DNA from: a virus
Reading direction: 5' to 3' (one strand)
Virus record (IMG/VR): IMGVR_UViG_3300028883_000974
Span: 1-49,663 of that record
Length of the DNA: 49,663 bases
In this document: piece by piece, positions 22,430 through 44,282 of the stretch
Layout: each line of letters begins with the position of its first letter
Numbering within the stretch: the first letter of the stretch is position 1
Program-made: the position numbers and the translations under genes
The notes under the pieces: model-generated
Seen by the model: only the letters and a program-made list of their open reading frames with translations
What the model was told of the DNA's origin: nothing
Databases searched by the model: none

Positions 22430-23443
22430 ATGAATAAATTACCCCGTTCAAAAAAACTATATAGTGATGCTTTGGTTTTTGCTGAAGAGATTTTATCAGA
22501 CATTGAATTAACTAGAACGCCACTTACTAACGTTTCTCTAAAGCTTTCAAGATTATTTAGATTATTAAATGATTCTTACAAACAGAATATGTTCCAGTAT
22601 GAAGCTTCTGGATATCCACATTCTCCAGGAGGCTATCCTCCAGAGATCTGGGCTATGCTAAAAGATGCAAACAGAATTGAAACTTCAGAGGATAAAAATG
22701 GCAAGGTCAATCAACATGGATATTGGTCAAGCATTGAACAATTAGAATCACAAATAGAAACAATCAAGACTAGAATAGCCGTGTCTATGGATCCCGATAT
22801 ATCCATATCGTCTGCAAATCCTGGTCAGTTTCTTACAGCTCCTATCGGAAATAAGTTTGAAAGAGACTCTTTACAAAATGCTATGCAGAAATCTATTGAA
22901 AGGTTATCTCAGAGAAGGGCTTTTTTACATGTAACAATTTCTGACATCTATACAGAATTAAAATACTCATCTCTATCAGATGATATTTTCTCACAGATAA
23001 GAGAAACTGTTGATATTAAAATTTCAGATAAAGTCTCCTCTTCTTTACAAAAGTTCACCTCTGCCTATGATAATTTGAAATCGGATAATCCTGAAGATTG
23101 GGCTAATGCTGTTCATAGTTGTAGAAGAATACTCCAAGACCTTGCAGATCACCTATATCCTCCTAGAGAAGATAAAATAATAGGCAATAAAGGCTCAAAT
23201 ATTAAAATAAAGCTTGGCAAAGATAATTATATAAATAGATTGATAGCGTTTATTGAAGATAATTCTGAATCAACCAGATTTAAGGAACTGGTCGGATCAA
23301 ATATCAGTTACATAGGGAATCGACTTGATGCAATATTCCGAGCAGCGCAAAAGGGGTCACATTCGGATATAGTGAACAAAGAAGAAGCTAGCCGTTATAT
23401 TATTTATACCTACCTGATTCTTGGCGATATTCTTTCATTATAG
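22430..23443 (+). CDS. AbiTii-domain protein with C-terminal HEPN-like RNase motif
   Basis: A 337-residue AT-rich protein. The N-terminal ~70 residues match the AbiTii pattern (EILSDIELTRTPLTNVSLKLS, then a short helical turn and EASGYP), a domain known from abortive-infection proteins. The C-terminal region, about 225-337, shows RRILQDLADHLYPPRED and then Arg304-x6-His311 (RAAQKGSH), fitting the HEPN RX4-6H catalytic signature of RNA-cleaving toxins. Between them is a coiled, Ser/Lys-rich linker. It is followed 41 bases later by an AlbA_2 protein on the same strand. Transcribed against the phage operon from its own promoter. RNase activity is inference; domain assignments are by eye. Confidence 0.72.
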   Translation: MNKLPRSKKLYSDALVFAEEILSDIELTRTPLTNVSLKLSRLFRLLNDSYKQNMFQYEASGYPHSPGGYPPEIWAMLKDANRIETSEDKNGKVNQHGYWSSIEQLESQIETIKTRIAVSMDPDISISSANPGQFLTAPIGNKFERDSLQNAMQKSIERLSQRRAFLHVTISDIYTELKYSSLSDDIFSQIRETVDIKISDKVSSSLQKFTSAYDNLKSDNPEDWANAVHSCRRILQDLADHLYPPREDKIIGNKGSNIKIKLGKDNYINRLIAFIEDNSESTRFKELVGSNISYIGNRLDAIFRAAQKGSHSDIVNKEEASRYIIYTYLILGDILSL

Positions 23444-23484
23444 AATTTATAACTTCTAGTAGAATAAAATTTGGAGGATAGTCA

Positions 23485-24756
23485 ATGATAAATCTAGGGT
23501 TTAATCCATTTGGGAAAGAAATTAAATCTATTGATAAAAACGATCTTGAAATCCTAAAAACTGTCTGTGAAGGTTGGTATGTCGAATATAAAATCAATTT
23601 CACTGATCCAAAAAAAATTGCCAAATCTGTAGCTTCATTTGCTAATGCCCATGGTGGTCTTATTTTCATTGGTGTTCAGGCAAATGCTAAAACAAACACC
23701 GCTACAGACTTTCTTGGAAGTAGTATTGAGTTAGATTTTATTCATAACTCAATTCGGGGAAATATAAATCCATTCCCTTATTATGAAATTGAATGTGTAG
23801 ATATACAGAAAGATAATCCTTTGGTGATTATTGTTGTGCCCTCCAGTGATGATTCACCACATATCCATAGCGATGGAAGAATTTATCGTCGACAAGATTC
23901 ATCTTCAGACCCTTTAAAAGAAAATAACCGTTCAACAATTGATGAACTTTATAAGAAAAAGGAGCAATTACAACTAGAGAAAGATGCTTTTAGAAACATA
24001 GACTATGGTTTTTGTAAAGGAGAAGATGAAAGACCCTTTTTATGTATTTATATAAATACCCATCCTTTTCGAAGTGCTATTATAAAAGATTTTCATCGTA
24101 CAAAAATGATGGATCTAATCAGAAAGCATTTCAATGAAGAGTTCGAATTATCATTGGAAGGTAAAATTGTTGTAAAGGGAAATATGAACTTTGATACAAT
24201 CCATCGTAACTATGAATCTATTACTTTAAGAAATTTGAACGGATCTGATCTGGCATATCATGGAATTACCCTTGAACTGGAGGAATCCTATTGTTTCAAA
24301 GCATTGATACCTTTGGATTACCTAACCTTCTCAAATTACTCACAGGAATTTGGGGAATATATAGAAACTCATAAAATCAAATCGATGGATATTATTAAGT
24401 TTTTAGATTTAGATTCTCTTGTAAAAATTACTTTTGGAATACTCTATAAATATTTTTCTTTCTTGAGCCTTTTAAAATATGAACAATCTATAGAATTTAC
24501 TTTTGAGACGCAAAACTGCTATAGAACCTCTTTATTTGGATCTTCTGATTATTATAAAGAATATATTACAAAATATGGGATTCCAATCTGTCTGAAACCT
24601 ACTCAACGATATCCACAGAACCCTCTGCCAATAACAATCCAGTCTGTATCTCAAGATTATGTTAAAACTATTGCATTATTTGTTGCTGAATTAGTATCAG
24701 GGTTTGGAATATCAAAGGAAGAGGTTTTCTTTATTTATAATTCAGATAGTAAATAA
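23485..24756 (+). CDS. AlbA_2/Schlafen-type (AAA_4) putative nucleic-acid-binding protein
   Basis: A 423-residue protein with the AlbA_2 (Schlafen AAA_4) signature at the N-terminus: Glu34-Tyr-Lys36 in a VEYKINF segment, then SFANAHGGLIFIGV (51-64), and around 120-135 a strand ending in IYRRQDSSSDP, typical of the domain. The middle and C-terminus (to 423) are not recognised. The gene has a GGAGG ribosome site and lies 41 bases after the AbiTii-HEPN gene, so the two form one transcript. Paired AlbA_2 and AbiTii/HEPN genes suggest a two-gene defence module. AT-rich relative to the phage. Confidence 0.8.
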   Translation: MINLGFNPFGKEIKSIDKNDLEILKTVCEGWYVEYKINFTDPKKIAKSVASFANAHGGLIFIGVQANAKTNTATDFLGSSIELDFIHNSIRGNINPFPYYEIECVDIQKDNPLVIIVVPSSDDSPHIHSDGRIYRRQDSSSDPLKENNRSTIDELYKKKEQLQLEKDAFRNIDYGFCKGEDERPFLCIYINTHPFRSAIIKDFHRTKMMDLIRKHFNEEFELSLEGKIVVKGNMNFDTIHRNYESITLRNLNGSDLAYHGITLELEESYCFKALIPLDYLTFSNYSQEFGEYIETHKIKSMDIIKFLDLDSLVKITFGILYKYFSFLSLLKYEQSIEFTFETQNCYRTSLFGSSDYYKEYITKYGIPICLKPTQRYPQNPLPITIQSVSQDYVKTIALFVAELVSGFGISKEEVFFIYNSDSK

Positions 24757-25912: not shown

Positions 25913-27706
25913 TTATATTTGTGCATCATACCCCACCGCCGCTGCCGCAGCTCTGGCATAGATATGGGTATCCAGAGCTTCATTCCGTTCTCTGATCTTT
26001 ACCCATTCCCATTTCACTTTCGATCGCTTATCCCTCGGAGTCGTTTTCTGAAGGACCTCGGCACAAAGCTGCTTGAAGTATTCATCTTCCCGATCTTCCG
26101 GGAAATGGCACCAACCGAAGGGAAAGGGATCATCTCCCTCCGGTGGTTTCTGCTTGAGCCAGTGGAAAAGTTCGCTCTTCAGGAATGAAGACCCCACTTC
26201 ATAATGAAACAAGGCATTTCGCATATGCTTCCCACCGATATGATCTACAGCTTTTGCTCCAGAGATTGGAGCCTTCAGCCGATCTGAACCCTGGATAGCG
26301 AGGACCCGGTCTTGGGGATATCCCCTGCAGAAATGATATACCGTCTCTGTATTATACCCGGCATCGATGCAGATTCCTGAGAGATATAGGGCTTCGCCGG
26401 TTGGAGGCATCCACTGTTTGGTCATGAGCATAGCAAGTTCTTCCCAGCATCGGTCATTCAGGGAGTTGGTAGTATGATCGGCAGTGAATACGTGATACTC
26501 AACACTCCAATGCTCGAACCGTTTCCCCCAGCCAATTACTTCAACCTCGATCCGGTTCTCCTGGACATCGGCACCGGCAGTAAGCATCACAATATCCTCG
26601 TGGATCTCACCTGAGCGCCAAGATTCTTTCCGGCCTCGGAGGACCTCCCAGTCCTGCTGCTCAGATTTTTCTTCCCAGGTCTCAGCCAATTCATCATTGA
26701 TAAACGAGATCAGCTTGTTCACATTACCCTGGGCATCGAGCCACTGCTCAACCAGCGATTCCCAGGTTGTCCACCCTACCGGGGCATAGAGAGAGCTGAT
26801 CTGATAACTTCTGATACTCTTAGATGCTGTATGAGGATTGGTCGGCCTCCACTCCCCTTTTTTCAGCATCAGTTCTTTGTGATAGTTCTTGATCACACCC
26901 TTGCAGTGAGGGCATTCATACCATACTTCCCGGTCACCGGCTGAAGTCTTCTTCCACTTCATCTGAGTCCATAGTAGGATCTGATACTCACCACAATGAG
27001 GACACGGAACAAAGAACTTTCTCATATCCCCGGCAAGATACCCAGCTTCTACCTTTGATCTGCCTTTAACCGAAGGCTTGGAGATCGCAACAGCTTTGGA
27101 GTTCGGATAGGTCCTGAGTCTTTTCAGCAGCAGGGTCCAGGGATCTCCTCGACCATTAAGATCTTCCGGCCACTCATCGATCTCATCTCCGATCGCTATT
27201 CTCTTTGGTGAGGAAATGAGGTCAGTGATCGATCCGGCATTCCCGATATTCAAGCTGCCGCCGAGAAACAGTTTCAACCTGGTAGTGTTGCCTCCCTCCA
27301 GGGTTCGTTTCTTCACGATCGCATCCCTGATGACCGGGGTGCTGGTGATCATCGGATCGATACGGGTCTTGGAGTTCTTGTCCACCATCTTCTCCCCAGC
27401 CCAGACGACCAGGATCTCCGAGGGATCATAGTGAATGTAGTACCCAATCGGATTACATACTCCAGCCTCGGTAGCTCCCATCTGGGAAGCTTTCATAATG
27501 TAGACCACCTTCACTCTTGAGTTGGCAGACAATACATCCATGATCTCTTTCCAGAAGGGAGTACGGTCAGTTCTATATGGCCCCGGCTCGGCTGAGCCTT
27601 TGGGAAGTACCCGGTACCGGTCAGCCCACTGACTGACCGTGAGATCTGCAGGAGGCTTCAGACCTCTGGACCAGGATTTCAGAATTATAGCTGTTTCAGA
27701 TTTCAA
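25913..27706 (-). CDS. Terminase large subunit (lambda gpA family)
   Basis: A 597-residue gpA-type packaging ATPase/nuclease. Residues 72-80 (KASQMGATE) form the Walker A-like loop, DEIDEW (174-179) the Walker B region, and two Cys-Pro-His-Cys pairs (235-238 and 265-268) a zinc finger characteristic of the gpA family. The C-terminal half holds the nuclease domain (ADVQENRIEVEVIGW). It cuts at cos sites and drives DNA packaging. Its start overlaps the small-subunit stop by 11 bases. The 3' end borders the AT-rich cargo island. Length matches lambda gpA (about 640) with a slightly shorter C-terminus. Confidence 0.95.
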   Translation of the reverse strand: MKSETAIILKSWSRGLKPPADLTVSQWADRYRVLPKGSAEPGPYRTDRTPFWKEIMDVLSANSRVKVVYIMKASQMGATEAGVCNPIGYYIHYDPSEILVVWAGEKMVDKNSKTRIDPMITSTPVIRDAIVKKRTLEGGNTTRLKLFLGGSLNIGNAGSITDLISSPKRIAIGDEIDEWPEDLNGRGDPWTLLLKRLRTYPNSKAVAISKPSVKGRSKVEAGYLAGDMRKFFVPCPHCGEYQILLWTQMKWKKTSAGDREVWYECPHCKGVIKNYHKELMLKKGEWRPTNPHTASKSIRSYQISSLYAPVGWTTWESLVEQWLDAQGNVNKLISFINDELAETWEEKSEQQDWEVLRGRKESWRSGEIHEDIVMLTAGADVQENRIEVEVIGWGKRFEHWSVEYHVFTADHTTNSLNDRCWEELAMLMTKQWMPPTGEALYLSGICIDAGYNTETVYHFCRGYPQDRVLAIQGSDRLKAPISGAKAVDHIGGKHMRNALFHYEVGSSFLKSELFHWLKQKPPEGDDPFPFGWCHFPEDREDEYFKQLCAEVLQKTTPRDKRSKVKWEWVKIRERNEALDTHIYARAAAAAVGYDAQI

Positions 27707-28256
27707 ATTGCTTTACCTCTTCTGAAAGGGTATGGAGGATCGTATCGATCTCCAGTCTCATTGTTTCCCTCGTATCCTCTTCATTCCCCCCAGCCTGGTA
27801 GGCTGCATGAGTTTTCTGAGCCAGACGATCCGGGAGATTCCTTAAAGAGTCGGTCAAGTGCTTGGCAATCTGGTAGGAGATCCCCACTGCAAGCTTCCGC
27901 TCGATAAGCTCACCGGAATCTTTCCGATACTCCAGCTCTGCCTGCAGGGCAACATACTCAGCCTTCTTCGCCTGGGCGATCGCCTTCTTCCGTGCCCAGT
28001 CAGTAAACTCCTCATCAGTAGAGGAAGGAGATCCCTTGAACTTCTGCTGGGTCGTTTCAGATTTCTTCTTCCTCCCCCGTTCGGTCCGGTTGAACTCGAA
28101 CTGCCGCTTGGCAATCTCAAAGACTATTTTCCCGTCCTCGGTGATTGCCTCCCCGAAGATGTTCCCCCGGGCAATGGCATTGGAGACTGCACTGCGGGAA
28201 ATATCGAGCCGACGGGCAAACTCAGCTTTGGGGATGATCTCAATCTTCTTACTCAT
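27696..28256 (-). CDS. Terminase small subunit (Nu1-like DNA-packaging protein)
   Basis: A 186-residue protein just upstream of gpA. Residues 9-30 (AEFARRLDISRSAVSNAIARG) form a winged helix-turn-helix that in Nu1 binds cosB. The central region (95-140) is a basic coiled helix and the C-terminus (about 140-186) would bind gpA. Length agrees with lambda Nu1 (181). The 163-base untranslated interval before it (28257-28419) is the expected place for cos. Confidence 0.88.
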   Translation of the reverse strand: MSKKIEIIPKAEFARRLDISRSAVSNAIARGNIFGEAITEDGKIVFEIAKRQFEFNRTERGRKKKSETTQQKFKGSPSSTDEEFTDWARKKAIAQAKKAEYVALQAELEYRKDSGELIERKLAVGISYQIAKHLTDSLRNLPDRLAQKTHAAYQAGGNEEDTRETMRLEIDTILHTLSEEVKQFEI

Positions 28257-28419: not shown

Positions 28420-28620
28420 TTATGCACTCTCACTGCCATAATCCCCATCCTCCAACAGGTCATCAAAGGTGGTCATCCCATCCTCAAGAGTCTGCCCGGT
28501 CTCTATGAGCTTCTTCAGCTTTGCATAGGTCAACCCGTAGGTGCTGCACACCTCAGCCACCGAATCGAAAATCTTTATCGAGTAGGTAGTGATCGCTATG
28601 ATCTTTCTATGATTTGCCAT
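28420..28620 (-). CDS. Small NUMOD1-like phage protein
   Basis: A 66-residue protein starting MANHRKIIAITTYSIKIF with a DSVAEVCSTYGLTYAKLKKL segment, the pattern of NUMOD1/GIY-associated helix-turn-helix modules that recognise DNA and occur as free-standing phage genes. It shares one base with the stop of the VRR-NUC gene. Stop lies at 28420, before the candidate cos interval. Function beyond DNA binding unknown. Confidence 0.68.
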   Translation of the reverse strand: MANHRKIIAITTYSIKIFDSVAEVCSTYGLTYAKLKKLIETGQTLEDGMTTFDDLLEDGDYGSESA

Positions 28621-28979
28621 TAAGCCTCGTCTCCTCCATCTTCAATACTTCTCTTTCCCTCGAGGATCACCTGCACATCCTCCACACTTCTCACCACGGC
28701 ATAGAACACCCCGTTCTCCTCACACCGCTTCTTGAATCGCCTCTGGTTATCAGAGAGCTGCCCGGCCTCTGTCTTCACCTCCAGGTAGCCGATCTCTCTA
28801 TGAGGGAACCACACCACCAGGTCAGCAGCACCTGGTCTCAAGCCCATGGTGATCATCCGCATGGTCCGCAGCTTATCAGCACCTGCTCCCTCATTAGGGA
28901 CCGAGTGACAGAAGATCCCCTGCCCCGATAAGTATTCCACGATCTCAGCCTGAATCCTGGCCTCTGCATTTCTCTTCAT
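28620..28979 (-). CDS. VRR-NUC domain nuclease
   Basis: A 119-residue stand-alone VRR-NUC (PD-(D/E)XK) nuclease. Active-site residues are Asp53 (GAADLVVW), Glu67 and Lys69 (YLEVKT) and Gln79 (SDNQ). Such phage proteins behave as small structure-specific or Holliday junction-type nucleases acting in recombination or DNA packaging. It follows the replication genes and the iteron block and is co-directional with the late operon. Confidence 0.9.
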   Translation of the reverse strand: MKRNAEARIQAEIVEYLSGQGIFCHSVPNEGAGADKLRTMRMITMGLRPGAADLVVWFPHREIGYLEVKTEAGQLSDNQRRFKKRCEENGVFYAVVRSVEDVQVILEGKRSIEDGGDEA

Positions 28980-29021
28980 TCTTCTCTTTTCCTTCCAATC
29001 CTTAGTACATCCTGTCCCGCT

Positions 29022-29186
29022 GGTAGTGGTAGTACCGGTAGTACTCTATAGAGTACTACTACCGTTACTACCGATACTGACCACCTCTGCCCCCTTGGTA
29101 GTAGTTTTCATTACTACCGGTATACTACCGACTACTACCGGGTAGCTCCTGGTATTCCTACCGTAGTACTACCGATACTACCGAGC
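29022..29186. repeat. TACTACCG repeat array with perfect palindrome: candidate replication origin or control region
   Basis: About seven direct copies of TACTACCG plus one inverted CGGTAGTA are packed into roughly 165 bases, together with a perfect 22-bp palindrome (29038-29059; half-site GTAGTACTCTA). The array overlaps the 3' end of the primase-helicase gene (stop at 29135) and extends into the 155-base gap before the VRR-NUC gene. Iterons beside a replication primase suggest an origin, though autoregulatory or recombination roles are possible. No CRISPR-like spacing is present. Confidence 0.65.
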
Positions 29187-31222
29187 CTTGTGAGCATCAT
29201 GACCGAAGAGGTTTCTCCGTCGATAATCAAATAGCCAGCCTGGTATTCCTGGACCACCCCTTCGGCCATTAACCTGCTGATCATGGATCTTGGATCTGAG
29301 ACCTTGAATTTCTGGTTCAAGTTCCCCTCCTTGATCTCCGGGTTCATGCTCTTGATATAATCCTTCCAGGCTGATTTGGTGATATAGGGAATCCCGTCAA
29401 TAGCCTCAGCTCCTGAACCCAGCCAGGCCTGGAGCAAGTCATTGACCCGTTCCTGCTGTTTGGCATCCCGCTGCTGCTTCATTGGGGTAATTCCCTCGGT
29501 CACCACTGCACTGGTTACCACTTCTCCATCTTCATCCAGCCAGGGAAGCTGTACCTCTTCAAGTTCCACATGGATAGCTTCAGTCATCTCAGCATCCTTC
29601 ACCTTCTTCTGGGAGATGGTGATCGGAGTATTCGCTCCTCCCGGCTCTATGCTGATATCGACATCCATGGCAGCTCTCCAGGCTGAAGATCCCCGGGCTC
29701 GATGCTGAGCCTCCGAGTTCACTCCGGTATGGTGGACCAATGCTACCGAGCAGGAGAATTCCCTCATGAGGTGAGCACAGGCATCCAGCATCGATTTCGC
29801 ATCCTGGGCACTGTTTTCATCCCCGGCAAAGAAACGATGGAGAGTATCCACCACGATCAGCTTCGGCTGGATCTCCAGAGAGTGGATATTGCTGACCGTC
29901 TTACCCAAGCCTTCGGCAGTATTGAGATCGACTGCTCCCACCGAGAGGGTCATATCGAGCTGATTGATCTGGTGGTACTGCTTCCAGGCTGCGATCCTGC
30001 TTCTAAGCCCGTAATGCCCCTCTCCTGCGAGATAGACCACATGGCCGCTCTGCACCTTCTGCCCCAGCCAATGAGTCTTCTTTGAAGCAATATGAAGGCA
30101 CCAGTCGAGGACCACAAAGGTCTTTCCAGACCCGGAAGGCCCATGGATCATGATCATAGCCTCTTCCTGCAGCCACCTGCGTACCAGCCACTTGAGCGGG
30201 GATGGATGCTGCGAGAATTCATCAGCAAAGACCAGCCAGGAGGGAGCTTTCGGTTGCAGCAGCTCTTTCAGATCTCCACCTGAGAGCAGGTAATCATTCG
30301 CATCTCCGATCTCCGGCGGCATGATAACTTCTGCTCCCGCAGCCTTCGCTGCCTCATCAGCACACTTCTTCCCGGTCCCGGATTCATCGTTATCAGCAAC
30401 GATAATGAGCTTTGAGGTGGGAAGCATCTCCCTGATTGAGGAGGTCACAGGGATCAGGTTCTTTGCATTGTAGGCGATAACAACCGGCTCTCCTGTAACT
30501 TCATGAATGCTTGCAGCTGTTGCATAGCCTTCTGCGATATAGACCCGTTTCCCGGTATTAAAATCTCCTAACCACCAGAAACAGCCTCCAGCTTTTCCTC
30601 CCGAGTGGAAGAGCTTCTTTCCCGACTCAGCAATGTACTGCAGGGTTGAGAGCTCTCCCTCTGGGGTGAACAGAGGCAGCATGAGCCGACCATCTTTAGA
30701 GATTTTGATCCCATGAGAGCCCACCTGTTTTTTCTGTAGATACCGATGATCCTCAGGTGCAGCTTCTGCAACTTCCCAGAGTTGCTGGCAGTTCTCTGCG
30801 GTCTCCTGATACTTCTGCTCCCGCTGTGTATCCCGAATTTCTGCTGCAATCCTCAGCCGTTCAGCCACCTTCATCGATTCCACAGCAGTGAGTTCCCGTC
30901 CGATATCAGCCCGCCACTGGTGTTTCTTCTCTTCCTTCCAGGTCCCGAATGCTCCTGCAGGGATTCCATCAGAGAAGGCCACATACCAACCGGAGAGATC
31001 TGACCGGGTGCCGTCTGCAGAGAATCGGTGGATCTCACCATTGAAGGTAATCCCGTTTGGCGCATGGAGCCCTGCATCCTGGATAGCTTGAGATAATTGT
31101 ATTTCTGGAGGGATAACCGCCTCTTCCCGATACTCCCAGGGCTGACCCAGGAGTTCGACGATATTACCCACTCTTCGAATTGCTGCTAGACTCAAAACGG
31201 CACCCCATCGAAAGATTCCCAC
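29135..31222 (-). CDS. Toprim primase - RecA-fold helicase (replication protein)
   Basis: About 695 residues, fusing a Toprim primase domain to a RecA-like (AAA_25/RepA-type) helicase. The Toprim segment shows VYIAEGYATAASIH (about 226-240) and IIVADNDESG (about 276-285). The helicase Walker A is HGPSGSGKTF (about 357-366), Walker B IVVDTLHRFF, and the VALVHHTG motif follows. The likely start is uncertain: GTG at 31222 has no ribosome site; a TTG or GTG downstream (around 31195 or 31175) overlapping the previous gene is also possible. It would prime and unwind phage DNA at the origin. The last ~17 codons run through the repeat block. Confidence 0.88.
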   Translation of the reverse strand: MGIFRWGAVLSLAAIRRVGNIVELLGQPWEYREEAVIPPEIQLSQAIQDAGLHAPNGITFNGEIHRFSADGTRSDLSGWYVAFSDGIPAGAFGTWKEEKKHQWRADIGRELTAVESMKVAERLRIAAEIRDTQREQKYQETAENCQQLWEVAEAAPEDHRYLQKKQVGSHGIKISKDGRLMLPLFTPEGELSTLQYIAESGKKLFHSGGKAGGCFWWLGDFNTGKRVYIAEGYATAASIHEVTGEPVVIAYNAKNLIPVTSSIREMLPTSKLIIVADNDESGTGKKCADEAAKAAGAEVIMPPEIGDANDYLLSGGDLKELLQPKAPSWLVFADEFSQHPSPLKWLVRRWLQEEAMIMIHGPSGSGKTFVVLDWCLHIASKKTHWLGQKVQSGHVVYLAGEGHYGLRSRIAAWKQYHQINQLDMTLSVGAVDLNTAEGLGKTVSNIHSLEIQPKLIVVDTLHRFFAGDENSAQDAKSMLDACAHLMREFSCSVALVHHTGVNSEAQHRARGSSAWRAAMDVDISIEPGGANTPITISQKKVKDAEMTEAIHVELEEVQLPWLDEDGEVVTSAVVTEGITPMKQQRDAKQQERVNDLLQAWLGSGAEAIDGIPYITKSAWKDYIKSMNPEIKEGNLNQKFKVSDPRSMISRLMAEGVVQEYQAGYLIIDGETSSVMMLTRLGSIGSTTVGIPGATR

Positions 31223-31380
31223 TGGTCACAGGCTTTGATCGTTCGGGCAAACTGCTCGGGTGGTTCAGTAGCATATTGTGTGCATACTCCGGTTTCGGAG
31301 TAATGAAAACAGGTATGGCAGCATTTGGGAACTTCGCCTCTCAGCCAGGCGGTAACAAAATCAGGTTCTGGATGTCTCAT
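31192..31380 (-). CDS. Small Cys-rich phage protein
   Basis: A 62-residue protein with CCHTC (20-24), a further Cys at 32 and Cys50, a probable zinc-binding arrangement. The upstream helicase stop overlaps the start by 4 bases, and the gene overlaps the primase start. Small zinc-binding proteins of this kind are common between replication genes of siphophages; function unknown. Confidence 0.6.
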   Translation of the reverse strand: MRHPEPDFVTAWLRGEVPKCCHTCFHYSETGVCTQYATEPPEQFARTIKACDQWESFDGVPF

Positions 31381-33014
31381 ATGATCCTCCTTGCAAGGAA
31401 GGAGCTTTCTGCAGACTCAACTTCCTCTTCTTCTCGTCTCTCCCAGACTCTCTCTGTGACCCGGTAGAATTTCCCATCCCTCCGGTAAGAGATCGCATCG
31501 GGAGGTCTTCTCAGGCTGAATACCATACAGAGCTCATCAGTATTCCAGCTCTCATTAATCTCGACCTGGCAGCTTGCTGCTATGAACTTCAGGGAGCCTA
31601 TAGCCTTTCTTCCGGCATAGCCTTCATGGAAGATGCAGAGATACTCTGTGACCGGCATATCAGAGAGGCTTCCGAAGTAGGTGATCTTCACCATCTCCTT
31701 CCCGCTCTTTTTGCTTGTGTGAGGAGACCAGAGCCAGCTGATAACCACCAGGTTGCTCTCTTCCTTTCCCATGATGTCATCGTTATGCAGCTGCCAGTCA
31801 TGGTGTTCTGCTGCAGGGAACTCATAGCCACAGTACCTGCAGATCTTTGCCTGAGCTGCCAGAATCTCGTCACAAGCGGGGCAGACCTTCGAGGGAGGAA
31901 GGGCATCACTATCCTCCTGCTTTCTCCCCGGAATTCTCACATTCGTGATCGGTCCATGGGTTTCCACGACACCGGCGAAATCGAGTACCAGACAGTGATC
32001 GGTATGGTTCTTCAGCCTCAAGCCCCTGCCTGCCATCTGGATATACAGTCCCGGGGAGAGAGTCGGTCTCATCATGACAATAAGATCGATATCGGGATAA
32101 TCGAAGCCGGTAGTCAGTACGTTGGCATTTGTCAGAGCCCTGATCTCGCCAGTCTTGAACGAATCGATGATTCTCTCCCGCTCCTTCTTGCCGGTGGACC
32201 CGGTGATACAGTCAGCTCCGATTCCATGAGCTATGAGGATCTCCTTCACATGCTGGGCATGGGAGACCCCCGTACAGAAGAAGAGCCAGGATTTCCTCAA
32301 TCCCGCCAGGCTGATCACTTCTTCAATGACAGCCTCAGTCTTTGCGGTGATATCGACAGCTTGCTGCAGCTCCTTCTCGATATACTCCCCACCCCGTTTA
32401 TGGACTCCGTCTGCTGAGAGCTTCGACCTGGTAACTTTGCTCCTGAGATCTGCAAGATAGCCCTGCCTCTGAAGCTCCTCGATGGTGATCGGCTCGATCA
32501 GGTCATCGAATAAGGCAGGAGCATCAGTGATCAACCCATGTCCCATTCGAAAGGGAGTCGCAGTTAATCCAATGACTCTGAGGTTTGGGTTCAACTCCTG
32601 AAGTCTCTTCAAGAATGACCGATAGGTCCCTTCTGCCTTATGCGAAACAAGATGACATTCATCTATGATGCACAGATCGATATGCCCTACTTCATGGTTC
32701 CTGATCGACTGGATACCGGCAAAGGTGATCGGTTCTCCGAGCTCCTTCCTGCCGATTCCGGCAGAGAAGATCCCCAAAGGGGCATTGGCCCAATGAAGCC
32801 TCAGCTTCTGGGCATTCTGCTCAATGAGCTCTTTCACATGGGTGAGCATCAGTATCCGGGTCTCCGGCCAGTTCTGGATCGCATCCTTACAGAGCTCTGC
32901 AATGATATGACTTTTCCCGGCTCCGGTGGGCAGCACCAGACAGGGATGTCCCTCATGAGTCTCGAACCAGTTGTAGAGATCTTTGAGTGCTTTCTTCTGG
33001 TAATCTCTTAACAT
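31377..33014 (-). CDS. DEAD/DEAH-type superfamily 2 helicase with zinc ribbon
   Basis: A 545-residue SF2 helicase. Walker A LPTGAGKS (28-35), DECH box (118-121), LTATPFRMG motif III (about 154-162), and a C-terminal helicase domain with QMAGRGLRL (motif VI, about 330-338). A CPAC...CRYC zinc ribbon lies near 385-405, followed by an unrecognised domain (about 410-545). Such phage helicases work in replication or recombination with the nearby Cas4-like nuclease. It overlaps that gene by 7 bases. Confidence 0.92.
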   Translation of the reverse strand: MLRDYQKKALKDLYNWFETHEGHPCLVLPTGAGKSHIIAELCKDAIQNWPETRILMLTHVKELIEQNAQKLRLHWANAPLGIFSAGIGRKELGEPITFAGIQSIRNHEVGHIDLCIIDECHLVSHKAEGTYRSFLKRLQELNPNLRVIGLTATPFRMGHGLITDAPALFDDLIEPITIEELQRQGYLADLRSKVTRSKLSADGVHKRGGEYIEKELQQAVDITAKTEAVIEEVISLAGLRKSWLFFCTGVSHAQHVKEILIAHGIGADCITGSTGKKERERIIDSFKTGEIRALTNANVLTTGFDYPDIDLIVMMRPTLSPGLYIQMAGRGLRLKNHTDHCLVLDFAGVVETHGPITNVRIPGRKQEDSDALPPSKVCPACDEILAAQAKICRYCGYEFPAAEHHDWQLHNDDIMGKEESNLVVISWLWSPHTSKKSGKEMVKITYFGSLSDMPVTEYLCIFHEGYAGRKAIGSLKFIAASCQVEINESWNTDELCMVFSLRRPPDAISYRRDGKFYRVTERVWERREEEEVESAESSFLARRII

Positions 33015-34027
33015 GCTGCCACAATCTCCCCGTCGAAGAGCTTCCTGATCTGATCTATCACCTCATCGCCGAAAGGCCCTCCGATTAGGAGCTCTCTGCT
33101 CGAATACCCAGCTTCTCCGTTGATAACCTCCTGATCACCGATACGCCAGCAGGCATTCCATTCAGAAGACTTCTCTTCAACCAATTTCCAGGGGACCAGA
33201 TCAGGATGAAAAACATGGGCTCTGCAGCCTGTGCTTTGAGCCTCCTTCGGGATCTCGGCCTGCCAACGGGCACAGGTCCAGGTACTGTTCACCTCTGGTG
33301 TTGCATGGGCACAGGTCCTGCAGTTGATCTCCTGAGTAGGATGGGAATCAAAACAGAAGGGATGGGCAGCACAGAGTCTGCACTGGTACCAGGAGGGATC
33401 AGCAGATAGAGGCTCTGGGATTCTCTCGCTGAGAGCGATCCTCTTTCCCCGCTCGATATATTTCTCACCGATACCCCGATCAATATAGACCCGCTCGGTA
33501 TAGAGCCGGTCATCATCCTTGCAGACTGCATAGTAGAGAGCTCTGGTAATATTCGCTCTCGTCATAGAGCACTGCATCTGGATAAAATGCTGCCACTTCG
33601 CTTTTTCGACTCCCTTCTTCTCAAGCTCATCAAAACTCTTCTTTGAGTGAGTTTTACACTCCCAGACATGGGTGGTCTTTGGAGCTTCAGGGAGTCCGGT
33701 ATAGATAATCCCGTCAGGGGAACCCTGGACATGGGACCCGGCATAGATGGTTCTCTGATATCGTCCGGTCTCCCGAAGATCCACCCCGATCGCCCTCAGG
33801 TCGGAAGCTGCAGTGAGCTCTTCATCCTGCCCTCTTCTGAATAACCGCTTGATCCTACCTGGGAATTGTTCCCTTACCGCCCAGCGGAAAGAGAGCCAGA
33901 GCCATCGGTCGCAGGGATGCCCAAGGAGAGAGAATCCCAGATGATAACGGGGTTTCTCTGATAATTCCTCATGGTATCGGTTGATAAGGGATATTGTATT
34001 GTTCTCAGGCTCTGGTATAATAGCCAT
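33008..34027 (-). CDS. Cas4/RecB-type Fe-S PD-(D/E)XK exonuclease
   Basis: About 339 residues from the ATG at 34027, chosen because of an AAGGAGGA site just upstream (an in-frame codon at 34060 lacks one). Nuclease motifs: Asp105 (GSPDGII), Glu123 and Lys125 (WECKTHS), Gln150/152. The Cys39 near the N-terminus plus a C-terminal CRLCAAHPFC (C-X2-C-X5-C) match the four-Cys iron-sulphur cluster of the Cas4/AddB nuclease family. A second Cys-rich segment (CRTC, then later TWTC and GCRAH) follows, unusual for the family. Probably processes ends for the Sak4-type recombinase. Confidence 0.85.
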   Translation of the reverse strand: MAIIPEPENNTISLINRYHEELSEKPRYHLGFSLLGHPCDRWLWLSFRWAVREQFPGRIKRLFRRGQDEELTAASDLRAIGVDLRETGRYQRTIYAGSHVQGSPDGIIYTGLPEAPKTTHVWECKTHSKKSFDELEKKGVEKAKWQHFIQMQCSMTRANITRALYYAVCKDDDRLYTERVYIDRGIGEKYIERGKRIALSERIPEPLSADPSWYQCRLCAAHPFCFDSHPTQEINCRTCAHATPEVNSTWTCARWQAEIPKEAQSTGCRAHVFHPDLVPWKLVEEKSSEWNACWRIGDQEVINGEAGYSSRELLIGGPFGDEVIDQIRKLFDGEIVAAC

Positions 34028-34105
34028 GCACTCCTCCTTGATTCGCATTTCGATAGACACTCCTCAGGAATCACTTCCTGAGGGTGTGATATGGTTGGTA
34101 GCCTG

Positions 34106-34606
34106 TTATCGTCTCGCCCAGGGAGGGGTGCTTTTGTCTTCTGCCGGCGGCACTGCGCCAGGAGATACCTGTACAGATTTCGGAGCCTGGAAGGATGGGA
34201 CTGCACCCTCCTTCTTTTTGTAGCCCTTCACCTCGTTTCTCGGATCGGGATACTCCTCAGTAGTCTTGGAAAGTCCCACCTTGATGCTGCAGGTGCCTCC
34301 AACCAGTTCATTGGTATCCTCTACCCGCACCAGGCCGATAGCCCTGATCAGAGAACCGAGCTGTTTGTGAGCGATCTCCATGGTCTGTGGATTGCGGTTG
34401 ATGAAGTTGATCAGGTCAAAGACGATCCTTCCTTCATGAGTGGGACCGGTGATACTGAACTGGAGATTGATATACTTTCCCCCGCTCTTTGCTTCCTTGA
34501 TATCAGCTTCTTTGATTTCTGCATCATACCAGCCGGCTGGAATCGGTTCGTAGGAGTCTTCCTGAGGAAGATCTGCCTCGTTATATACTTGTCCTAGATA
34601 TGCCAT
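34106..34606 (-). CDS. DUF669 protein, putative ssDNA-binding recombination partner
   Basis: A 166-residue DUF669 family protein. Motifs: PAGWYDAEIKEADIKEAKSG near the N-terminus and INLQFSITG, with LINFINRNPQ around 70-80. The C-terminal tail is Pro/Gly-rich and ends PPWARR, a tail typical of single-stranded DNA-binding partners. DUF669 genes usually accompany Sak4-type recombinases in phages, as here. Confidence 0.82.
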   Translation of the reverse strand: MAYLGQVYNEADLPQEDSYEPIPAGWYDAEIKEADIKEAKSGGKYINLQFSITGPTHEGRIVFDLINFINRNPQTMEIAHKQLGSLIRAIGLVRVEDTNELVGGTCSIKVGLSKTTEEYPDPRNEVKGYKKKEGAVPSFQAPKSVQVSPGAVPPAEDKSTPPWARR

Positions 34607-34623
34607 ACGCTCTCTTGTTCTCC

Positions 34624-35013
34624 TTATGCTTCATCCCGGGAGATGGAAAAACTCAATCTTCCAGGTTTCGTAGTGATCGCTGCGAGCATTGGTCCCGTGA
34701 CTTCAGGATCACTGCTATTCCAGACACTCTTATTGACCTCAGCCTTCCAGCGAAACAGCTTTGATAGCTGATCGGTCGTTCCATGAATATCAGCGATTCT
34801 CTGCAGCTTCACCTCATCAATTTTGCGGGTCATTCGTCCGGTCACCTTGATCTTGAAGGGACCAGCCGGTATCGACTTTGTCCCTTCGAAGCTTTCAGGG
34901 ACCTTAAGCTGATTGCCGAGCCAATCCTCGATCTCTCGCCTCTGTTCTACGGCAGCTTTCTCTGCCAGTTTCGCCTCATCCCAGGCTTTGCAGGCTCTCT
35001 CGATCTCAGTCAT
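34624..35013 (-). CDS. Hypothetical phage protein between recombinase and DUF669 genes
   Basis: A 129-residue protein starting MTEIERACKAWDEAKLAEKA, with a coiled N-terminus and a beta-rich C-terminal half. The same type of small gene occurs at this spot beside Sak4 genes in many siphophages; I know no assigned function. It overlaps the Sak4-type gene by 4 bases. Confidence 0.6.
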   Translation of the reverse strand: MTEIERACKAWDEAKLAEKAAVEQRREIEDWLGNQLKVPESFEGTKSIPAGPFKIKVTGRMTRKIDEVKLQRIADIHGTTDQLSKLFRWKAEVNKSVWNSSDPEVTGPMLAAITTKPGRLSFSISRDEA

Positions 35014-35687
35014 GCTGCACCCCCTCCGATCCTGGAAATGATCAGTCCCAGATCAGGGCTCTCCCAGGGAGACAATTTCCCGGAGCGGTCCTTTGCCGTC
35101 CAGATCCCGTCTGCATCACACATAAGAGCCCGTTGGGTTACTCCATCACTATCCTTCTCGACTCTGAGCGCCAGGACCTCATCGAAAAAATAGGGAAGCT
35201 GCTGCCCAGTCTTGTTTCCCGGCATTGAGGGTGAATAGAGAATTCTTCCCATCTCATCCTGGGTCTTCTCGAGCTTTGCTGAGAAATAGACATGCTTCCC
35301 CTGAATATCACGGAAGGCACGAATGAGATCGGTGATCTGTTCCTGCATGGCCCCGTAGGCCTGCCGGGGATCTTTGGCATGCTTTTTCTCATAATTCAGC
35401 ACCACCTCAGCGATTTCCGAGATGGAATCCAGGCAGATGCTCATGAATTCACTCCCCTCTTCACTGGTGAGCCAGCTGTAGGCATCCTGCAGATCGGCAA
35501 CTGATGAGATCTCGATGAACGGGATATCCTCATCTGCCAGTGATAGCAGGCCGGCCTCCGCTGATAACACAATCGGTTTCGGCAAGGTTTTCACCAGAGT
35601 AGTCTTACCGGCACCGGCAGCACCGTAGACCAGCAGTTTCACACCCTGGACTGCAATGTCCCTGGTTGTCTGTAATCGTATTGCCAC
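35010..35687 (-). CDS. Sak4-type RecA-like recombinase (AAA_24)
   Basis: A 225-residue RecA-fold ATPase. GTG start at 35687 preceded by AGGAG. Walker A GAAGAGKTT (22-30), Walker B-like ICLDSIS (about 84-90). It matches the short phage Sak4 single-strand annealing/RAD51-like family. It is the first gene of the leftward operon, downstream of the predicted early promoter, and would pair with the DUF669 protein and the Cas4-like nuclease in recombination-dependent replication. Confidence 0.85.
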   Translation of the reverse strand: MAIRLQTTRDIAVQGVKLLVYGAAGAGKTTLVKTLPKPIVLSAEAGLLSLADEDIPFIEISSVADLQDAYSWLTSEEGSEFMSICLDSISEIAEVVLNYEKKHAKDPRQAYGAMQEQITDLIRAFRDIQGKHVYFSAKLEKTQDEMGRILYSPSMPGNKTGQQLPYFFDEVLALRVEKDSDGVTQRALMCDADGIWTAKDRSGKLSPWESPDLGLIISRIGGGAA

Positions 35688-36093: not shown

Positions 36094-36810
36094 ATGATAG
36101 ATTTCTGGAAAAGAGTTAAAAAAAATTTAGACCCCGAGAAAAACCAGAACTGGTTGTGTAATGAAATAGCAGTTTCAAGCGGCACAATGTCCAGCTGGAT
36201 CACCCATGACAGACTGCCCAAAGCTGACCTGGCAGTCAGAATCGCCAAGGCTCTGGGAGTATCAGTGGAATACCTGGTAACCGGGGATGATGAAGAGTTC
36301 AGCCAGAATCAGGAGACTGTTTCACAGGCTGTGCGCCAGCATGCAATCTACAGGACCCCGAGGAATCAGGAGATCCCCCTCAACCCTGAGGATGATGTAC
36401 TCATGCTGCCGGTACTGGATCAGAAAGCTTCTGCCGGGTATGGAGCCATGCAGATAGATGATCAGTTATCAGGGAACCATATCCCCGTCCTGAGAAGACT
36501 GGTATCAAGTTATACCATTTCATCCCTGAAAGCTGTTGAAGTCCGGGGAGACTCCATGACCGGAGTCAGAATGTTCGATGGAGATATTGTTGTTTTTGCT
36601 GCTGGGTATATCGCATCAGAAGGGATTTACGTGTTATCAGTGAACGGCGATGTCCTAGTTAAACGGGTAGAATTCGACTCCTTTGACAAAACCATCAAGG
36701 TATCCTCAGAGAACCCCAGATACCCCGATATAAAGACAGTATCAATCGACGATGAGAATGTAGAGATCAAAGGAAAAGTTGTGGCGTGGTTCCATTGTCA
36801 TCCGTATTGA
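36094..36810 (+). CDS. CI/LexA-type phage repressor (HTH + S24 peptidase)
   Basis: A 238-residue repressor. The N-terminus (residues about 18-65) is a helix-turn-helix of the Xre type (NEIAVSSGTMSSWI). The C-terminal S24 domain has Ser154 (RGDSM) and Lys190 (VLVKRV) as the catalytic dyad, with an Ala-Gly cleavage bond expected at 114-115 (ASAGYG). RecA-stimulated self-cleavage during SOS would inactivate it. It is divergent from the leftward operon and would bind the palindrome at 35971-35988. No Cro-like gene is seen beside it. Confidence 0.93.
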   Translation: MIDFWKRVKKNLDPEKNQNWLCNEIAVSSGTMSSWITHDRLPKADLAVRIAKALGVSVEYLVTGDDEEFSQNQETVSQAVRQHAIYRTPRNQEIPLNPEDDVLMLPVLDQKASAGYGAMQIDDQLSGNHIPVLRRLVSSYTISSLKAVEVRGDSMTGVRMFDGDIVVFAAGYIASEGIYVLSVNGDVLVKRVEFDSFDKTIKVSSENPRYPDIKTVSIDDENVEIKGKVVAWFHCHPY

Positions 36811-37445: not shown

Positions 37446-37795
37446 TCGGGCTTCACTGTCATCAGAGTTATACCTATTCCCTTCCTTTCTGAGTATAGCA
37501 AAACCCTGTTAAAGTCCAAAACCACAATAATCGTAACTATACCAACGGGAAAATGCTATTAATCAACTTCTATAGACTTCTATCTACGATAATTCCTTGA
37601 TAATTATTTACTACCATTATAAAGTATAAAGGGTAACGTAAAATCACATGTATCACCATTCAAGATCACTCTCTCATTTTGAGTGCAAAGATGAACATGA
37701 TAAATGGGAATTAAGTAAATTTGTTCGAAATAGGTTTTAAAAGAACCTGTTTTACAAGTAACAGATACCTATTTACGAAGACTATAGGAGCCTTT
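37446..37795. other. 350-base intergenic region before the DUF499 operon
   Basis: No gene seen. It contains a tandem direct repeat ACTTCTAT at 37566-37573 and 37576-37583, exactly one helical turn apart, suggesting a regulator site. A weak promoter candidate TTGATA (37597-37602) with TATAAA at 37618-37623 has a short 15-base spacing. An inverted repeat AGGTT/AACCT lies near 37732-37748. The AGGAG ribosome site of the DUF499 gene is at its right end. Confidence 0.4.
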
Positions 37796-40700
37796 ATGAA
37801 AACCATCCGCAGCGCATGCAAACTACAGCCGAACGCTTTGGAGATCTCAGTAGGAAATCAGATTGAGAAACTCGATCAGATAATTCATGACACAGATGGA
37901 GAAGCCTTCTTTGAGAAAACCTTCATTACTGATGGGATGAGGGCTTTACTGACGAAAGGGATGGCTCGATTAGCTGGAAAGTCAAATGATACAGTCTTTC
38001 ACCTTAAACAAGCTATGGGTGGTGGTAAGACCCATGTTATGATTGGTTTTGCACTTCTTGCAGCTAATCCAGAACTTCGTAGAAAACTGATCGGAACTAT
38101 ACCGTATCAATCTAATTTTCAAACGTCAAAGACAGCTGCATTTAATGGAAGAAACAACCCAGAGACATACTACTGGGGTGAGATAGCCAAACAACTGGGA
38201 GAAGAGAAACTATTCAGGAAATATTGGGAGTCAGGTCCAAAAGCTCCGGATGAGGATGCTTGGTTGCAGCTGTTTTCTGGTGATGATCCTATCCTGATTC
38301 TCCTAGACGAAATACCACCCTATTTCCATTATTATAATACTCAGTCACTTGGGCAGGGGACCATAGCAGATGTCGTAACAAGAGCTTTTTCAAATATGCT
38401 CACGGCTGCATCAAAGAAGAAAAATGTATGTATTGTTGTTTCTGATTTAGCTGCAGCATATGACTCCGGTGGCAAACTGATTCAAAAAGCTTTAGACGAT
38501 GCTTCACAGGAACTAGGTAGAGCTGAAGTAAGTATAACTCCTGTCAATCTTGAATCTAATGAAATATATGAGATCCTTCGCAAACGGTTATTCACACAAC
38601 TTCCATCAAAGGATGAGATCGCAGATATTTCTGCAGCCTATGCAAATAGATTATCTGAAGCTGCGAAAGCAAAATCAGTTGAACGTAGTGCTGAGGCGAT
38701 TGCGAATGAAGTTGAATCGACCTACCCTTTTCATCCAAGCTTTAAGAGTATTGTTGCTCTATTCAAGGAGAATGAAAAATTCAGACAAACGAGAGGCCTT
38801 ATGGAGCTTGTGTCTCGGCTTCTCAAATCAGTCTGGGAGAACTCTGAGGATGTATATCTCATAGGAGCACAGCATTTCGACTTATCTATTCTTGAAGTCA
38901 GAGAAAAAATCGCTGAGATCTCGAAAATGCAGGATGTCATAGCTCGGGACCTTTGGGATTCAACATTTGGAGCTCATGCTCAGGTCATCGATTTACAAAC
39001 AGGAACCTCCTATGCCAAACAAGTTGGAACTATGCTATTGATGGCAAGTCTATCTACTGCTGTTAATTCTGTGAAAGGTCTTTCAGAAGCTGAACTCATG
39101 CAGTACCTCATAGACCCATTACATCAGGCTAGTGATTTCAGACCGGCTTACGAAGAACTGAATAAATCTGCCTGGTATTTGCATCAGACTCAAGAAGGCC
39201 GAAGCTATTTTGATCATCAGGAAAATTTAACGAAAAAGCTTCAGGGTTATGCTGAAAAAGCTCCCGGCAATCAAGTTGATAAACTGATTAGAGAGACCCT
39301 TGAGGGAATGTATAAGCCAACTACTAAGGAAGCATACGGAAAAGTTCTACCCTTGCCAGATATGGAAGAAGCTGATGCAGCTCTGAAAACAGGAAGAGCA
39401 TTATTGATCATCAGCCCTGATGGGAAAGTTCCCCCGGCTGTTGTCCAGAATTTCTATAAGGATCTGATTAACAAAAATAATATGTTAGTCCTCACTGGAG
39501 AGAAGTCTTCTATGGCAAATATTGAGAAGTCTGCACGTCATGTATATGCCACTCTGAAAGCAGACCCTGAAATAAGTGCAACACACCCACAAAGAAAGGA
39601 GCTTGATGAAAAGATCGGGCAATATAAACAGGATTTCCAAACTACGGTAATAAGTGTATTTGATAAACTTCTTTTCCCTGGGAAGATGCAGCATGAGGAT
39701 GTTCTTCGAGCGAAGGCTCTTGATAGCAGCTATCCTGCAAATGAAAAATATGATGGTGAGAAACAGGTGATTAAGACTCTCACTTCAGATCCTATGAAGC
39801 TATATACAAATATCCCAGAGAATTTCGATGCTCTTAAAGCCAGGGCAGAACAACTGCTCTTTGGCTCCCAGGACGACATGCTGGAGATCGAATTAAAAGA
39901 GGGCATGAAACAGAAGACTCAAATGCCTTGGATTCCTTCAAAGGGGTTTGATGAGTTAAAACAAATTGCTTACCAGCGGGGCATATGGGAAGATCTTGGG
40001 AATGGGAAAATCACGAGAAAACCCCGGCCTAAGACAACCAATGTCATTGTTTCCGAAGACGGATCTGCCGATGATAAAGGGTTTATACGTATAAAAGTTG
40101 AAACGAGCAATGCTGGCGATAATCCTAGAGTTCATTATGAAGAGGATGGCGAAGTTACGGTAAACAGTTCGGTATTGAACGAATCACTTCTAACAACCAA
40201 CGCTTTACGAGTTCAATTCCTGGTAGTTGATATTACAGGGAAAAGCCAGACAGGAAGCCCCGTGACTTGGGAGAATAAACTTGTTTTACGAAATAGGCTG
40301 AATGAGGCTGACAGAGCTGTAGAGTTGTTCGTAGCCCCCCGAGGGAAAATCCGTTATACCCTTGATGGATCAACACCTAGAAATGGAACAGAGTACACAG
40401 AACCTATAGAGATTGGCAAAGGAAAGGCAAAGATCTATGTATTTGCCGAATGTGAAGGCATAGAAGTCGAGAGAACTTTCCAATTCGCTGAGTCCGGCAA
40501 TAAAGATATTGTGTTCATTAAGGAGAAACCCGCCCAATTATATGCAACCTCTCCAAAGAAGTTAGATAATTCATCAAAAACCTTCCAGGGGTTGAAGCTT
40601 GCGCAAGAGAAGAATTTGCTGTTTGAACAAGTAATTCTCATGCTTGGGACCTCACCCAAAGTTGTCCATTTGTCATTAGGAGAAATGAAAATCCCAGCTG

Positions 40701-40861
40701 ATTATATCGAAAAGACACTGATTCATTTCCAATCACTTTTTCAGGATGAGATCCCTATAGTCATGCAGTTTAAGAAAATACATGCGGATACTGGTCATGA
40801 TTTAGAGCAATTTATTAAAAAGTTAGGTATTGAAATTAAGCAAGAAGAGGTGAGCCAGTGA
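37796..40861 (+). CDS. DUF499 P-loop ATPase of a methyltransferase-helicase defence operon
   Basis: About 1021 residues from the ATG at 37796, chosen for AGGAG six bases upstream over an upstream in-frame ATG at 37721. The N-terminal DUF499 domain carries a Walker A AMGGGKTH (73-80) and Walker B ILLDEIPPY (about 168-176). The C-terminal part (about 780-930) has a beta-rich segment with a chitobiase-like RYTLDGSTPRNGTEY motif. DUF499 proteins are known together with DUF3780, DUF1156 methyltransferases and helicases in phage-defence loci. First gene of an operon in which each gene overlaps or abuts the next. Confidence 0.9.
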   Translation: MKTIRSACKLQPNALEISVGNQIEKLDQIIHDTDGEAFFEKTFITDGMRALLTKGMARLAGKSNDTVFHLKQAMGGGKTHVMIGFALLAANPELRRKLIGTIPYQSNFQTSKTAAFNGRNNPETYYWGEIAKQLGEEKLFRKYWESGPKAPDEDAWLQLFSGDDPILILLDEIPPYFHYYNTQSLGQGTIADVVTRAFSNMLTAASKKKNVCIVVSDLAAAYDSGGKLIQKALDDASQELGRAEVSITPVNLESNEIYEILRKRLFTQLPSKDEIADISAAYANRLSEAAKAKSVERSAEAIANEVESTYPFHPSFKSIVALFKENEKFRQTRGLMELVSRLLKSVWENSEDVYLIGAQHFDLSILEVREKIAEISKMQDVIARDLWDSTFGAHAQVIDLQTGTSYAKQVGTMLLMASLSTAVNSVKGLSEAELMQYLIDPLHQASDFRPAYEELNKSAWYLHQTQEGRSYFDHQENLTKKLQGYAEKAPGNQVDKLIRETLEGMYKPTTKEAYGKVLPLPDMEEADAALKTGRALLIISPDGKVPPAVVQNFYKDLINKNNMLVLTGEKSSMANIEKSARHVYATLKADPEISATHPQRKELDEKIGQYKQDFQTTVISVFDKLLFPGKMQHEDVLRAKALDSSYPANEKYDGEKQVIKTLTSDPMKLYTNIPENFDALKARAEQLLFGSQDDMLEIELKEGMKQKTQMPWIPSKGFDELKQIAYQRGIWEDLGNGKITRKPRPKTTNVIVSEDGSADDKGFIRIKVETSNAGDNPRVHYEEDGEVTVNSSVLNESLLTTNALRVQFLVVDITGKSQTGSPVTWENKLVLRNRLNEADRAVELFVAPRGKIRYTLDGSTPRNGTEYTEPIEIGKGKAKIYVFAECEGIEVERTFQFAESGNKDIVFIKEKPAQLYATSPKKLDNSSKTFQGLKLAQEKNLLFEQVILMLGTSPKVVHLSLGEMKIPADYIEKTLIHFQSLFQDEIPIVMQFKKIHADTGHDLEQFIKKLGIEIKQEEVSQ

Positions 40862-44279: not shown

Positions 44280-44282
44280 TCA

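Follow-up and report, generated by a model that had tools for sequence, protein, structure and literature searches.

Replication initiators that read iterons 3' of their own gene with their own C-terminus are already known from P4 and from SaPI and SCC elements, and pRN1 has an origin of a like kind. The helicase of P4 alpha is of the SF3 type, and the crr region, as inspected in its sequence, adjoins the alpha gene on its 3' side, with 8-bp type I iterons in both direct and inverted orientation. P4 alpha is a Toprim primase-helicase whose C-terminal winged helix binds the origin repeats (PMC4234260). The SaPI Rep/ori system and SCC Cch2 are built in a comparable way, with iterons that immediately follow the gene of the initiator helicase and are read by its C-terminal domain (PMC7581432). 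The plasmid pRN1 (replication protein ORF904) depends on a stem-loop 3' of the replication gene, and a similar stem-loop has been noted in BPP-1-like phages; in both cases the protein is a primase-helicase with a C-terminal winged helix, and the structure of the stem-loop is kept while its sequence changes (PMC4234260). Iterons or a protein-DNA code were not recognised at these stem-loops in that paper (PMC4234260); on inspection, the stem-loop of Bordetella phage BPP-1 (BIP-1) is made up of four copies of TTTGCCTCG, two of them direct and two inverted. RSF1010 (IncQ) oriV represents another arrangement, with a RepA-type hexameric helicase, iterons and priming hairpins (PMC4234260, PMC8965321).

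The locus described here belongs to a 49,663-base virus record (IMGVR_UViG_3300028883_000974), which was analysed over its whole length and is referred to as the window. Behind the gene of a 695-aa primase-helicase stands an array of iterons around a dyad (Table 1), which very probably constitutes a self-encoded replication origin that the primase-helicase would read with its own C-terminal domain; both the binding and the initiation are what we infer from the comparisons given below. The protein joins a Toprim_3 domain (residues 227-316) to an AAA_25 RecA-fold ATPase (residues 331-503; Pfam and PHROGs), that is, to a helicase domain of the RepA type (Pfam AAA_25, E 4e-36), and no SF3/D5 domain is present among its Pfam hits. 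The gene immediately upstream of it encodes an SF2 helicase and not a Cro-like protein. Terminase genes are found further on (25913-28256), with terS 0.8 kb downstream of the array.

Table 1. Positions of the replication genes and of the elements of the proposed origin (window coordinates unless another locus is named)
Feature	Position	Strand	Basis or remark
Toprim-RepA-type primase-helicase, 695 aa, proposed origin-binding initiator	29135..31222	-	Pfam, PHROGs, relatives
C-terminal domain modelled as winged helix, residues 570-695, proposed origin-binding	29138..29515	-	AF2 model, structural neighbours, iteron co-variation
Gln637 codon (CAG)	29312..29314	-	best predictor of iteron base 3; residue 638 in the stop-to-stop ORF (one extra leading residue)
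VRR-NUC / Holliday-junction-resolvase-like nuclease, gene next after the proposed origin	28620..28979	-	Pfam, PHROGs
Upstream replication/recombination operon: SF2 helicase, Cas4-type exonuclease, SSB-like protein, Sak4-like annealing protein	31377..35687	-	Pfam, PHROGs
Proposed origin of replication, iteron array and dyad	29022..29186	.	repeat and palindrome counts; architecture in relatives
22-bp perfect palindrome GTAGTACTCTATAGAGTACTAC, CTNNAG-type centre (CTATAG)	29038..29059	.	palindrome scan, folding
Inner iteron pair, one side of dyad (CGGTAGTA x2, 9-bp spacing)	29057..29073	-	
Inner inverted iteron pair, opposite side of dyad (GGTAGTA at 29028, 29037)	29028..29043	+	
Outer iteron array (29112, 29123, 29133, 29167, 29176), extending into last primase codons	29112..29183	-	
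GGGGGC box	29089..29094	-	counterpart in relatives: GGGGCAAAA
CAGCGGG box, beyond inverted iterons	29016..29022	-	counterpart in relatives: mostly GATGCGG/TGCAGG
Relocated origin-like element with GGGGCAAAA box	L351 about 743 = G001 about 16743		

The 8-mer TACTACCG has eight exact copies in the 49.7-kb window, seven on the plus strand and one on the minus strand, all of them within 29036-29183, against a mean of 0.40 and a maximum of 3 copies in shuffles of the whole window. An earlier note on this DNA had counted seven direct copies and one inverted copy and had regarded their density as far above background, and both statements hold. With the 7-mer core GGTAGTA the number rises to 10 copies in 29028-29182, seven in one orientation and three in the other (29028, 29037 and 29097), two of the inverted ones having been missed before; this array is the densest 7-mer cluster of the window. 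The perfect palindrome of 22 bp, which had been reported as well, proves to be the longest in the window, the runner-up measuring 16 bp. When folded as single-stranded DNA, the 62-nt core is far more stable than its shuffles (z -4.1 and -3.9 for the two strands). Three of the eight TACTACCG copies are situated wholly or partly within the final primase codons (stop 29135-29137), which agrees with the overlap noted formerly, and the other copies are, together with the palindrome, intergenic and ahead of the nuclease gene starting at 28979. The origin reading gains support from the fact that array and dyad exceed chance and adjoin replication and recombination genes. Against it, GC skew makes no switch at 29 kb and tracks gene direction. 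The protein tail GSIGSTTVGIPGATR of the primase-helicase is encoded by iteron DNA: its last ~16 residues (window 29138-29183) are translated iterons and overhang the ends of most relatives.

As in P4 alpha and SaPI Rep, a short repeat in several direct and inverted copies is found beside the initiator gene. With P4 alpha and crr the window further shares the Toprim primase-helicase, the C-terminal winged helix, here a modelled one, and the position of the iterons 3' of the gene; it differs in having a RepA-type AAA_25 domain in place of the SF3-type helicase, and P4 has GGTGAACAG iterons, a crr without CTNNAG dyad and a second, distant ori. SaPI and SCC initiators contain DUF927 or D5/Primase_Cterm helicases, in contrast to the Toprim and AAA_25 domains and the conserved central dyad seen here. 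Since the SF3 helicase is missing, the window element is not filed as a member of the P4 or SaPI family. pRN1 and BPP-1 depart from it by an AEP primase joined to an SF3 helicase and by a large loop instead of a short CTNNAG dyad; BPP-1 and P4 crr both show the arrangement of two and two iterons without such a dyad. RSF1010 divides the work between three proteins, RepA, RepB' and RepC, whereas primase, helicase and the proposed binder are united here in one chain, and the RSF1010-type arrangement of a separate RepC binder and RepB' primase with ssi hairpins is not present. What is different at this locus is that Toprim, winged helix and a RepA/RecA-fold helicase form one chain, and that a recurrent CTNNAG dyad, Toprim-linked boxes and a residue-to-base rule go with it. 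In the literature searched, which took in little of the subscription journals, no description of an iteron/dyad origin was found for Toprim-RepA phages.

For comparison, some 175 additional RepA-helicase loci were taken from phage isolates, bacterial genomes and viral contigs, these being the best 80 per scan of ~600 or more homologues, mostly from metagenomic phages. The best inverted-repeat core was sought across each whole locus, and a success was counted when it fell in the zone from -60 to +450 of the helicase stop. The top-scoring site was located in this zone in 108 of 163 loci, compared with 6.4% (about 10) expected. The architecture found 3' of these RepA-type helicase genes, mostly Toprim-RepA, comprises two iterons, a CTNNAG-centred dyad and two inverted iterons, usually 30-250 bp downstream of the helicase stop codon; CTTTAG (62 of the 108), CTATAG (19) and CTTAAG (5) are the commonest centres. 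Site scores have a median near 29, coding-region controls reach at most 14, and the same scan of the whole 49.7-kb window gives the array at 29 kb as its best-scoring site. Typical cores, written on the helicase strand, are CGGTAGTAACGGTAGTAGTACTCTATAGAGTACTACCGGTACTACC in the window, GGGAACGGAACGGAACACACACCTTTAGGTGTGTTCCCAGTTCCC in L026, GGTAACTATGGTAACTACTCCCCTATAGGGGAGTTACCACGTTACC in L005 and GGTTCACCTGGTTCACACACCTTATAGGTGTGAACCAATGAACC in PB15. Among the isolates that share the layout are Alteromonas phage PB15, where the proposed origin is near 19.6-19.9 kb, and Idiomarinaceae phage 1N2-2, where it is near 34.3 kb. The iteron letters vary by phage (GGTAGT, GGTAAC, GGAAC, GGTTC, TGACCC and others). 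A relative of 92% identity (L004) preserves both the array and its iteron letters, and in more distant ones the layout persists with changed letters.

The layout also follows RepA genes of bacterial chromosomes that encode a helicase only, as in Methylotuvimicrobium buryatense (L141), so the dyad is independent of the Toprim domain. Two boxes are linked to Toprim, and the helicase-only RepA group lacks them: GGGGCAAAA in most cases precedes the dyad centre by 39-43 bp, and GATGCGG/TGCAGG in most cases follows it at 21-25 bp. GGGCAA occurs in 39 of 71 Toprim-group loci, where 1.4 would be expected. In one phage (L017, 2173-4065) a primase-polymerase-like N-terminus replaces Toprim, and the related C-terminus and a GGGACA dyad layout are kept; the type of primase can apparently be exchanged while the reader of the origin stays.

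After the helicase gene of some relatives, among them L007, L016 and a freshwater clade around L289/L326, no site was recognised, which counts against the origin reading; the detection script is blind to dyads with longer loops, by which the fraction of loci without a site is overstated. In the freshwater clade another ORF directly follows the primase gene, with no repeats. One member (G001) has an equivalent element, TTTCTTACACATTTTGCACATATATCCTTAGGATATGTGCATTGTGTAAAGCGG preceded by GGGGCAAAACAGCG, about 9 kb from its primase gene and upstream of a terS-like gene, and on account of this copy the element looks like a separable module; no equivalent was found in the sister contig G003 or in the L326 contig. 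Repeats of other kinds (GTGCGGCA, CGCGAGGTT and TTGCGGAAGTC) directly follow RepA-helicase genes of a Klebsiella plasmid and a Salmonella island, both also with capsid genes, and of Methylomagnum and Caenibius plasmids (L342, 3930-4200; L345, 3970-4420; L344, 4900-5620; L343, 3960-4270); the CTNNAG dyad is mostly missing there. The notion of a hairpin obligatory in all RepA systems was rejected, the island and plasmid repeats of L342, L344 and L345 having no clear CTNNAG dyad.

The C-terminal ~120 residues of the primase-helicase are its least conserved region except for the very start of the protein. This domain models as a winged helix in AlphaFold2 (pLDDT 77.5, pTM 0.61), and so, more confidently, does a second type of C-terminus accompanied by the same origin layout (pLDDT 87.5, pTM 0.77). 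One layout occurring with two modelled winged-helix types was counted in favour of the origin reading. Nearly all structural neighbours of the domain are winged-helix proteins, with middling Z values (best 6.9, all below 8); as Foldseek gave no close solved relative (no E below 0.001), the assignment is based on topology and many middling matches, and a family's absence from the match lists carries no weight against it.

Between loci whose helicase domains are at least 90% identical, similarity of the origins correlates with identity of the C-termini (rho 0.67) and not with that of the helicase domains (0.26). No other column of the protein is as informative about iteron base 3 as that of Gln637. 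In the discovery clusters Gln goes with GTA in 15 of 15 and Lys, Val or Thr with GGA in 12 of 12 (Fisher 6e-8), and in held-out clusters the figures are 8 of 8 and 4 of 5 (Fisher 0.007), p-values which are indicative only since the discovery clusters share ancestry. The rule, which had been spotted by eye ahead of the held-out test, was kept in 12 of 13 scoreable held-out clusters, whose C-termini share no more than 92% identity with the discovery set; the single breaker is L332, with Lys and GGTAC. Asn in this column is paired with several iteron types. From these alignments one residue, Gln637 here, appears to predict iteron base 3, Gln corresponding to GTA and Lys/Val/Thr to GGA.

A natural comparison is offered by L048 and L078, which differ in 27 of 680 residues; only three of these differences (Q to V, S to A and P to T, within eight residues) affect the C-terminal domain. 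L048, with Gln, has iterons of the GGTAAC type and L078, with Val, of the GGAAC type, changed on both sides of the dyad. DNA identity is 94-95% before the stop codon and 88% beyond the origin, and drops to 72% in the origin because of this switch. Judged by co-variation, repeat specificity would be set by the C-terminal domain, and the former guess that the Toprim-helicase is the binder may be narrowed to its last ~120 residues. Free variation of the repeats between relatives had been named in the earlier note as an argument against an origin; the letters do change, though together with the protein and not freely, and by this co-variation with the helicase C-terminus the origin claim is strengthened. 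The candidate origin proposed at that time is supported, since most relatives have the layout on the 3' side of this helicase gene and its letters co-vary with the C-terminal winged helix.

The following course of initiation can be suggested. The origin would act in cis beside the gene of its own initiator, whose C-terminal winged helix would bind the CGGTAGTA iterons. Since the inner iterons, two direct and two inverted, flank the CTATAG-centred dyad, they would set two helicase assemblies face to face. Melting or extrusion of the dyad might then expose single-stranded DNA, possibly in hairpin form; a TNNA loop closed by C-G gives a stable DNA hairpin. On the exposed strand the ring helicase could load and the Toprim domain could prime nearby, the conserved GGGGC and GCGG boxes being candidate priming sites. 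At the SV40 origin, two helicase rings of large T are loaded by short sites that stand in inverted pairs about a centre; the likeness to the window is one of layout, the protein being unrelated. In vitro, the replication protein of pRN1 showed no detectable specific binding to its origin (PMC4234260), which counts against the proposed reading.

Some other functions of the array have to be weighed. That a separate initiator, for example a small Cro-like protein, reads the iterons of an origin to which the primase-helicase is merely recruited seems very unlikely: RSF1010 with its iteron-binding RepC is a precedent (PMC4234260), and several isolates have a Cro-like gene ahead of the primase, yet in the window that position is taken by the SF2 helicase, and the iteron letters follow the primase C-terminus down to a difference of three residues. 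A packaging site (cos or pac), in which the repeats would be bound by the small terminase subunit beside a symmetric cleavage site, was thought of because terS is so near. The terminase genes do follow in the window, the site of relatives is often placed between the primase gene and terS, and that of G001 is just upstream of a terS-like gene. Such a function is nevertheless highly improbable, as the iteron type goes with the helicase C-terminus and not with TerS. L020 has the iterons of L048, yet no TerS homologue in the 4 kb examined, and the iterons of L078 differ from those of L048 although TerS is 76% and TerL 97% identical; by this dissociation among the three loci a lambda-type cos was rejected. 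Moreover, terS of phage PB15 is about 6 kb off the site, and the architecture also follows the helicase-only RepA genes of bacterial chromosomes.

An element of transcription or RNA, namely a terminator, attenuator or operator of the primase operon, would suit the position at a 3' gene end and the strongly palindromic sequence, which would fold as RNA too. It is given hardly any probability, for there is no Rfam match, the dyad has no T-run, the sole terminator-like match is a different, weak stem on the other strand, and a 3' location is ill-suited to repressing the preceding gene; a scan for promoters and terminators gave only weak matches at chance level. The co-variation with a DNA-binding domain and the repeats beyond one dyad would also be left unexplained. 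A palindrome with flanking inverted repeats near replication genes resembles, finally, the targets of a protelomerase, a resolvase or a ParB-like protein. A resolution, telomere or partition site is scarcely credible, however, when no such enzyme is found among the window proteins scanned (a subset of the ORFs of a record that may be incomplete) and the co-varying partner is a helicase.

With the array taken as an origin read by the primase-helicase, a wider proposal can be made, the chances of which we regard as evenly balanced: RepA-helicase phages and islands might share one origin design with an interchangeable winged-helix reader and a legible code, the position of Gln637 setting base 3, and the Toprim-only GGGGCAAAA and GATGCGG boxes might be fixed priming sites. 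If this were true, replicon specificity and the compatibility of co-resident elements could be deduced for hundreds of viruses from their sequences. Most phages known from sequence only have no annotated replication origin, and the layout, recognisable by sequence alone, predicts where replication starts. It also names the domain and the residue that would choose the origin and makes the co-evolution of initiator and origin testable with natural proteins three residues apart. RepA-type helicases, which in RSF1010 work with a separate iteron binder, are linked by it to initiators made of a single protein, those of P4, SaPI and pRN1.

Other parts of the window deserve a mention. A tyrosine integrase is encoded at its edge (101-1444) and a CI-like repressor (CI/S24, 36094-36810) is divergent from the replication operon, and these two genes suggest a temperate phage or prophage. 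Beside the phage operon, at 37721-48127, four genes match the PADLOC candidate-defence models DUF499, DUF3780, DUF1156 methyltransferase and PLD-helicase with very high scores; this cluster of lower GC (about 0.40), which also holds an unassigned ORF of 377 aa, is a probable restriction/defence cassette. Within the block of structural genes a patch of GC 0.31-0.35 (22430-24756) contains AbiTii-like and Schlafen/AlbA_2 genes on the plus strand and is likely a defence insertion in the phage.
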